Part shown: positions 36,631 through 37,480 of the stretch, one piece after another
How the letters are laid out: each line of letters opens with the position of its first letter
How positions within the stretch are numbered: position 1 is the first letter of the stretch
DNA from: Crateriforma spongiae
GTDB taxonomy: Bacteria > Planctomycetota > Planctomycetia > Pirellulales > Pirellulaceae
Direction: 5' to 3'
Length of the DNA stretch: 64,000 nt
Assembly (NCBI RefSeq): GCF_012290005.1
Contig: NZ_JAAXMS010000002.1
Location: 620,001-684,000, forward strand
Made by a program: the position numbers and the translations under genes
Notes under the pieces: model-generated
The model's input: only the letters and a program-made list of their open reading frames with translations
Databases searched by the model: none
What the model was told of the DNA's origin: nothing

Positions 36631-36661
36631 GTAGCTGGGCCCGCGGAGGGCTCAGGGCGCA
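36631..36661 (+). repeat. REP-like element, half copy
   Basis: The first 31 bases of the 62-base palindromic element (GTAGCTGGGCCCGCGG...) are present and identical to the full copy at 36676. The second half is missing. Confidence 0.75.
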
Positions 36662-36675
36662 GCACATAAAGATCC

Positions 36676-36737
36676 GTAGCTGGGCCCGCGGAGGGCTCAG
36701 GGCGCAATGGCCCCTGAACGCTGGCGCGTCCAGCTAC
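36676..36737 (+). repeat. REP-like palindromic element, full copy (3' side of RAYT gene)
   Basis: A 62-base imperfect palindrome that begins GTAGCTGG and ends CCAGCTAC. It matches the copy at 37419-37480 at 59 of 62 positions and has the same orientation. It lies 18 bases beyond the transposase stop. Confidence 0.85.
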
Positions 36738-36754
36738 TTTTGAATTCCATCCCA

Positions 36755-37333
36755 TCAGCCTCGCTTTGAATCAGCCACATGAAACAAATCCGTTCGTTTC
36801 AAATAGGAAAGCGCCCGCCAGAGTCGCGGCCACGAGTCTTCTTCGAACAACCGCAGGTCGGGAAAACCGGGCAGTCGACAGCCGGAATATGCGTATGACG
36901 CGAACCGTTTGTGATCGATCAAGCCCGCCCGCTCGGGATTTCGAACGATGTATTCCACAATCGCCCGCAGCTCAGTCTGTTCGACCTCCGTGTCACGCAA
37001 AACGCGATCGTACGCCTGCAATTGCCACCGAAAACCAATTCGCTTTAGCGATAGGTTGGTTTGTTTGCGAAAAAAACTCGTCGCCGCGCGCTGATCCGAA
37101 TCGTCGGCCAATCCATGCCAGAGCATGTGGACGTGATCGGGCATCAGGCAATACACCAGGCAAGCGATCCGATGCCTGAATCCGGTGTGCGTCAGGATCT
37201 CGCGAAATCGATACAAAAACCGAGGATCCAACCAACCGGTGGCGCGCCCGTCCATCGTCAGCGACCAGTGGACCCAAGATTCGCCCTGATAAGCCCCCGG
37301 ACAGAGACGCTTTAGGTAGTCGTCCTGCGGCAT
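36755..37333 (-). CDS. REP-associated tyrosine transposase (RAYT, Y1/HUH family)
   Basis: 192 residues of the TnpA_REP/IS200-like Y1 transposase family. The HUH metal motif is MPDHVHML with H67 and H69. The candidate nucleophile is Y128 in EYIVRNPERAGL, the family's YIxxNPxxAGL block. The gene is flanked on both sides by 62-base REP-like palindromes in the same orientation, which is the classic RAYT/REP layout. Such proteins cut and join single-stranded REP DNA. It appears intact. It sits between secreted-protein genes, transcribed against them. Confidence 0.93.
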   Translation of the reverse strand: MPQDDYLKRLCPGAYQGESWVHWSLTMDGRATGWLDPRFLYRFREILTHTGFRHRIACLVYCLMPDHVHMLWHGLADDSDQRAATSFFRKQTNLSLKRIGFRWQLQAYDRVLRDTEVEQTELRAIVEYIVRNPERAGLIDHKRFASYAYSGCRLPGFPDLRLFEEDSWPRLWRALSYLKRTDLFHVADSKRG

Positions 37334-37418
37334 GATTTTGTGATCTGCGAGGAAATTGGAATCGCCCCGAAATGGCAGAGGGCTGCTGAATGCAACGCGA
37401 ACTTTTTCAAATCAAGCC

Positions 37419-37480
37419 GTAGCTGGGCCCGCGGAGGGCTCAGGCCGCGATGGCCTCTGAACGCTGGCGCGTCCAGCTAC
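37419..37480 (+). repeat. REP-like palindromic element, full copy (5' side of RAYT gene)
   Basis: 62 bases, GTAGCTGG to CCAGCTAC, differing from the copy at 36676-36737 at only three positions. It lies 86 bases upstream of the transposase start codon and 140 bases before the next gene at 37621. Confidence 0.85.

Follow-up and report, generated by a model that had tools for sequence, protein, structure and literature searches.

The window, i.e. the whole 64,000-nucleotide stretch of DNA analyzed here, holds a complete gene for a REP-associated tyrosine transposase (RAYT) that is bordered on both sides by inverted pairs of GTAG-tagged hairpin repeats (REPINs). The locus is very probably a REPtron: the RAYT, a Y1 HUH single-strand DNA nuclease, is predicted to bind, cut and rejoin DNA at the GTAG hairpins of its own REPINs, in a system that now appears to be quiet. 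This reading is drawn from sequence, namely from the architecture of the locus, the covariation within the REP stems, the correlation between RAYTs and their REPs, the repeat sites shared with a sister species, the constraint on the REPs and the change in the number of repeat units. The locus offers a clean low-copy REPtron outside the Proteobacteria, with a sister species for comparison, and shows that repeats need not fill a genome for a RAYT and its REPINs to persist.

The locus and its transposase

The features of the locus are as follows.
36631..36655, plus strand: single REP (the half copy; its exact identity with the left REPIN spans 36631-36661)
36676..36737, no strand assigned: left REPIN, with a plus-strand REP at 36676-36700 and a minus-strand REP at 36714-36737, located 3′ of the RAYT stop codon
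36755..37333, minus strand: RAYT (Y1 HUH REP-associated tyrosine transposase), 192 aa, HUH residues 67-69, catalytic-type Tyr128
37419..37480, no strand assigned: right REPIN, with a plus-strand REP at 37419-37443 and a minus-strand REP at 37457-37480, located 5′ of the RAYT start

The 62-bp elements at 36676-36737 and 37419-37480 are identical at 59 of 62 positions and have the same orientation. The 31 bases at 36631-36661 are an exact copy of 36676-36706, the first half of the left 62-mer, and are placed head-to-tail 45 bp before the left REPIN. A sequence-only reading of the window had described both repeats, the half copy and an intact RAYT between the repeats; the coordinates and identities were borne out, and the RAYT frame (36755-37333, minus strand) is complete from ATG to stop. 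Each 62-mer is composed of two inverted REPs, each consisting of GTAG and an 8-bp hairpin. The plus-strand REP has the stem CTGGGCCC/GGGCTCAG and the loop GCGGA, the minus-strand REP the stem CTGGACGC/GCGTTCAG and the loop GCCA, with one G-T pair in either stem. Each 62-mer is thus a REPIN whose two REPs differ from one another, and the 31-base copy, which holds one hairpin unit, is a single REP. The term "imperfect palindrome" used in the earlier reading was correct but incomplete, as each half is itself a hairpin and symmetric pairing across the whole 62-mer is found at only 15 of 31 positions.

When folded as single-stranded DNA, both REPINs reach −21.5 to −22.3 kcal/mol on either strand and outperform shuffled sequences (z −2.9 to −4.4, 200 shuffles each). 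The whole REPINs favor a cloverleaf (−22.9 and −22.0 kcal/mol) over two separate REP hairpins (−13.3 and −13.2 kcal/mol). Both 62-mers are inverted REP doublets able to adopt a single hairpin or a clover, as in a REPIN, and inverted GTAG-tagged hairpin repeats flank the gene on both sides, as in a REPtron.

The enzyme contains the HUH motif D66-H67-V68-H69 and Tyr128. It is matched by the NCBIfam model REP_Tyr_transpos (NF047646) with an E-value of 4.6e-12 and 46 bits, below the cut-off of 80; because this cut-off is curator-set, the score is read as divergence rather than as exclusion. Every one of the 50 sequences in alignment A3 is also matched by this model (E of 0.001 or lower); A3 joins the window RAYT (P0001) to 49 loci that we chose from the 80 of the named set described below, with L116 and L139 excluded for their stop codons. 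The Pfam Y1_Tnp score is sub-threshold as well (17.1 bits, cut-off 23). A phmmer search of the PDB with the single RAYT sequence did not find HUH proteins; a profile search with A3 returned E. coli TnpA-REP with bound REP hairpin (4er8) as the first match, at 1.3e-5. The AlphaFold model of the RAYT (mean pLDDT 92.4, pTM 0.88) also has 4er8 as its top PDB match in Foldseek (E 5.6e-8, 17% identity in the Foldseek alignment), followed by the IS608 and ISDra2 transposases. The protein combines an HUH motif, one catalytic Tyr and a Y1 fold near TnpA-REP, the features of a REPtron enzyme.

Residues W103, Q104, D109, R110 and R113 share the spacing of W94, Q95, E100, H101 and R104 in E. coli, a region treated as the GTAG-contact region in PMC6006769. 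According to the same source, subclasses 2.5 and 2.7 carry Asp, sometimes Arg, at two GTAG-contact positions, and have the Tyr motif YI[VI]ANP (2.5) or YI[LR][NQ]NP (2.7) and the HUH motif DH[LF]H or [ND]HVH. In the window RAYT, DHVH and WQ fit subclass 2.7, and YIVRNP matches neither the 2.5 nor the 2.7 consensus exactly.

Related RAYTs and their REPs

Relatives of the window RAYT are patchily distributed among the genomes searched. With P0001 as query they were found in 8 of 98 genomes, and with alignment A2 in 36 of the 396 genomes searched from the order, the window's own genome being included in both counts. The order-level set comprises 48 RAYT loci, of which 44 were testable (at least 150 bp on both flanks) and 4 were dropped. 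A 12-mer starting with GTAG (at most 1 mismatch) is common to both flanks at 42 of these 44 loci, compared with a mean of 0.05 and a maximum of 1 locus in 200 first-order shuffles. When seven other tetramers were used as the start of the 12-mer, 3 to 19 of the 44 loci were positive, the highest counts being those of AGTG and GATC, which are found within the common REPs. The named set was taken from planctomycetes, Verrucomicrobia, Lentisphaerae, one Armatimonadetes and others and comprises the best 80 of 298 loci (73 testable, 7 dropped for a flank below 150 bp). Here, a GTAG 12-mer is present in both flanks at 68 of 73 loci (shuffle mean 0.12, maximum 1); the two sets overlap and are thus not two independent tests.

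The order-level misses are L106 and L108. One flank of L106 looks replaced, as an ORF of 292 aa ends some 80 bp short of what is left of the RAYT frame; at L108, inspection by eye revealed an altered tag in the REP-like repeats on one side. The named-set misses are L124, L165, L187, L189 and L194. Direct reading of the flanks showed REPs with internal mismatches at four RAYTs. The Rhodopirellula baltica relative (L088), which is 50% identical to the window RAYT, has GTAG repeats on both sides. At two RAYT loci of one genome (L042 and L047 in G013), both flanks of the RAYT genes hold REPs that are arrayed in tandem and in either orientation, with a pitch of about 110 bp and about 100-105 bp.

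As REPs were chosen by the tag and the 5′ arm alone, the 3′ arm provides a fair test of pairing. With G-T pairs counted and the best loop of 3 to 6 taken, the 82 distinct REPs have on average 7.12 of 8 positions paired, compared with a mean of 4.85 and a maximum of 5.16 in 500 runs with permuted 3′ halves. All four Watson-Crick types are seen at stem pairs 5, 6 and 7. Fewer than 6 positions are paired in 13 of the 82 REPs, ten of which were recognized by eye as stems with internal G-A mismatches. The loops are patterned as well: G is first and A last (G-N-N-A) in 46 of the 49 REPs with a four-base loop and at least 7 pairs, and in 6 of the 12 with a five-base loop.

The distances between RAYTs correlate with those between their REPs (r 0.45 for 91 proteins more than 10% apart; r 0.52 for the 47 planctomycete proteins; 0 of 2000 permutations in both cases). 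Restricted to pairs more than 40% apart, r is 0.185 for all (0 of 2000) and 0.184 for the planctomycetes (1 of 2000). The nearest RAYT outside the genus (L103, 62%), encoded by a gene with one in-frame stop, has CTGG...TCAG REPs. The next four are all about 56% identical; one of these (L121) has CTGG...TCAG REPs and the other three have different stems. The 91 non-redundant RAYTs, each with its own REP, offer a ready natural experiment on the co-change of an HUH enzyme and its hairpin.

Published RAYTs have a near-constant Trp at the position of E. coli W94. Across 105 RAYTs of the present set, from which loci without a shared REP, those of at most 140 residues and those contained in another row are omitted, this position is Leu in 62, Phe in 33, Ile in 1, Pro in 1 and Trp in 8, so that 97 of 105 do not have Trp.

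Copy number and history in the genus

The window's genome (G000; 6.87 Mb, 48 contigs, 97.8% complete) was searched for further 62-mers, and none were found outside the locus. The pattern GTAGCTGGN{11,15}TCAG has 17 matches in this genome and the reversed control 12, a difference that by itself carries little information; 5 of the 17 are at the RAYT locus. In every one of the 17, at least 7 of 8 positions are paired, four pairs being forced by the pattern. Of the 12 elsewhere, 11 have close stems (ATGC/GCAC or GCAT, ACTC/GAGT) and GCCA loops, one differs, and no inverted pairs were found among them. The sequence-only reading had named many intergenic copies of the 62-mer, often in pairs, as what would support a REP family served by this RAYT, and the genome does not contain them. 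The abundant cognate REPs by which Nunvar et al. selected the RAYTs that they analyzed (PMC2817692) are absent here, whereas Di Nocera et al. also counted REPtrons in species without REP families (PMC3733652).

The same-genus genome G001 contains 23 pattern matches (control 11), 6 of them at the locus. In each of fourteen further genomes the count is between 0 and 5, with a total of 39. At least 7 positions are paired in 9 of these 39 matches, three of the 9 being in G053 with ATTC/GAAT stems. For a different pattern, GTAGYGGAN{11,12}TCC, large families are present in G013 (310 matches, control 11), G037 (411 and 18), G050 (57 and 5) and G011 (33 and 9). G045, whose RAYT has REPs of this pattern, contains 28 against a control of 27, and G035, whose REPs end otherwise, 16 against 18. 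The count is also raised in G007 (101 and 20) and G019 (86 and 36), both without a match in the search with P0001; another RAYT or an orphan REP family may be present there.

A second RAYT is encoded in G000 (gene C12:156800-157333, within locus L049, G000:C12:155684-161102) and is 47% identical to that of the window. Its REPs are of the type GTAGTGGACGAGGCGACGAGTCC, and most true-looking copies in G000 lie within about 5.4 kb around this gene. No empty site is claimed for it, as the sister stretches match in blocks of 76-79%, compared with 89-95% for most orthologous stretches. G001, where no second RAYT was found at E 1e-10, has a cluster of GTAGTGGACGAGG-type REPs at C1:1815789-1836290 (L051, L052), possibly an orphan cluster.

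The RAYT locus of the window lies at the same position in G001 (94% over 10.5 kb). The one same-genus genome thus offers no empty site for this RAYT, a comparison that the earlier reading had proposed; the remaining relatives belong to different genera. In G001 a half REP and a REPIN are found on both sides; one extra 45-bp REP unit lies inside its right cluster, so that the window is one unit short on the right. The half copy had been seen as a possible clue to how the elements break up or pair; it is a tandem 45-bp unit of a kind whose number varies between the species on the other side of the gene, and it gives no view of how REPINs arise.

The dispersed REP sites compared, taken from either genome, were all shared by G000 and G001 (12 of 12):
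G000 C4: 550947; about 592994; 612348/612392; 615509; about 688060
G000 C5: 164897/164946; 165518/165568; 657385; about 678400
G000 C6 and C1: C6:91182, C6:117936; C1:about 225150

The comparison leaves out the pair C3:539828/G001 1608263, a pattern match that pairs at 7 or more of 8 positions, and the weak G000 C6:560853 and G001 3557275. At 7 of the 12 shared sites, visual inspection showed a change in one or more copies in one of the genomes. The number of units differs at C5:164897/164946 (2 vs 1) and C5:165518/165568 (2 vs 3), where units are 49-50 bp long, and, with longer units, at C4:615509 (2 vs 1) and C5:678400 (1 vs 2). As all compared sites are shared, no REP insertion since the split is seen within them, and the doublets do not form a dispersed, multiplying family. 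Recent activity or amplification, one of the options of the earlier reading, was rejected on these grounds, i.e. the whole-genome searches and the site-by-site comparison within the genus. At one G001 site (L059:2001-4508, about 3318500-3321000), two REPs enclose 2.5 kb of DNA that carries a DDE_Tnp_1 transposase, and the G000 counterpart is a single REP.

The other option, strong constraint, is supported. Between the species, the five orthologous REPs of the locus are unchanged in the tag (0 of 20) and stem (0 of 80), i.e. 0 of 100 positions, compared with 30 of 286 in the intergenic DNA of the locus outside the REPs and 3 of 23 in the loops (2 if the right plus-strand REP is set against the inner copy of G001). 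Fisher's test for tag and stem gives p = 1.2e-4 against the intergenic DNA and 0.006 against the loops, values for copies that may be non-independent. The RAYT has a dN of 0.040, a dS of 0.174 and a dN/dS of 0.228; three neighboring genes are at 0.034, 0.006 and 0.034, and a short fourth is at 0.361 on seven changes. The RAYT is under purifying selection and changes faster than three of its four neighbors, which fits the account of Nunvar et al. (PMC2817692).

Mechanism, known systems and rival explanations

The transposase-like gene product probably recognizes the hairpin repeat that flanks its gene. Most likely, it would bind GTAG-tagged hairpins when these are single-stranded, e.g. in the lagging-strand template, cut beside them and be able to rejoin the strands, like E. 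coli TnpA-REP in vitro. The latter acts on single-stranded REP in a strand-specific manner with involvement of the GTAG tag (PMC8266576). The system appears to be quiet now: the REPINs, under sequence constraint, have remained beside their gene, and the dispersed REP relatives predate the split from the sister species and are partly decayed. What differs between the species is the number of tandem REP-plus-spacer units (45-50 bp, two longer), which were gained or lost, probably by replication slippage. REP binding and cutting, any movement of the REPINs and the part of slippage in unit-number change are inferred.

The locus shares with the gammaproteobacterial REPtrons (PMC2817692, PMC8266576; 4er8) the Y1 HUH enzyme, the inverted GTAG hairpin pairs on both sides and a REP sequence that tracks the enzyme. 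However, the window protein is divergent from these, and its genome contains few REPs instead of tens to hundreds. The REPINs of Pseudomonas fluorescens SBW25 (PMC3116915) are likewise inverted REP doublets with a spacer, hairpin or clover folding and an adjoining RAYT; in contrast, inverted doublets are here found at the RAYT only, and the two REPs of one doublet differ in stems and loops. Class 3 TnpA-Y1 enzymes are mainly planctomycete and belong to the same HUH/Y1 superfamily, but they are described with a Y----Q motif and a CnGA foot (PMC6006769), whereas in the window the motif is YIVRNP and the feet are GTAG.

The setting in a planctomycete has a precedent, as GTAG REPs and REP transposases of planctomycetes were reported in 2013 (PMC3733652). 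That report describes several REP families in R. baltica, together with a "plethora" of tyrosine transposases that have repeats on their flanks. It also describes doublets in which the two REPs differ, G-T pairs, sub-families whose stem changes are complementary, and a frequent fit of the loops to CMA. The R. baltica and Opitutus terrae systems belong to the same wider group as that of the window, which differs from them in its few REPs. The Leu, Phe, Ile or Pro at the W94 position and the head-to-tail REPs are possible small novelties, and a literature search worded as REP, RAYT and tetraloop found no paper joining the three. A bolder proposal is held only tentatively, and we consider it rather unlikely as a whole: the RAYTs of planctomycetes, Verrucomicrobia and related phyla would form a separate recognition subclass (Leu or Phe for Trp, GTAG REPs with 8-bp covarying stems and G-N-N-A loops), and in this genus selection for a function in the host would maintain the enzyme and its REPINs with no amplification of REPs, the number of tandem REP units being what evolves.

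Several points speak against a REPtron: no amplified REP family accompanies the RAYT in G000, the NCBIfam and Pfam scores are sub-threshold, the single sequence retrieved no HUH protein from the PDB, the pattern count is little above its control, and the RAYT-REP correlation falls among pairs more than 40% apart. A conventional IS200/IS605-type insertion sequence, moving as one unit with the REPINs as its ends, would likewise have a Y1 transposase with hairpins on each side, and the transposases of IS608 and ISDra2 come next after TnpA-REP in the structural search. Nonetheless, we regard such an element as highly improbable: the genome encodes this protein once, together with a single 47% relative and two distant ones, the sister species has the locus in the corresponding position, the top structural match is TnpA-REP and not IS608, and the GTAG tags and the WQ and YI..NP motifs are those listed for RAYTs in PMC6006769. 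The REP/RAYT arrangement recognized in the earlier reading is retained on the grounds of enzyme family, repeat architecture and related loci; recent activity is not supported, and the many copies that it proposed to look for were not found.

Very little weight is also given to the repeats being mainly terminators or other RNA-level hairpins of the neighboring genes, with the RAYT adjoining them incidentally. The left cluster does lie between convergent genes, 16 bp past the upstream stop codon, and one terminator-like match (36720-36734) overlaps it, but such matches occur at chance level (2 found, shuffle mean 2.1), and RAYTs of many genera have their own matching repeats on both sides. For a REPtron in this position, a side effect of the left cluster on transcript ends is possible.
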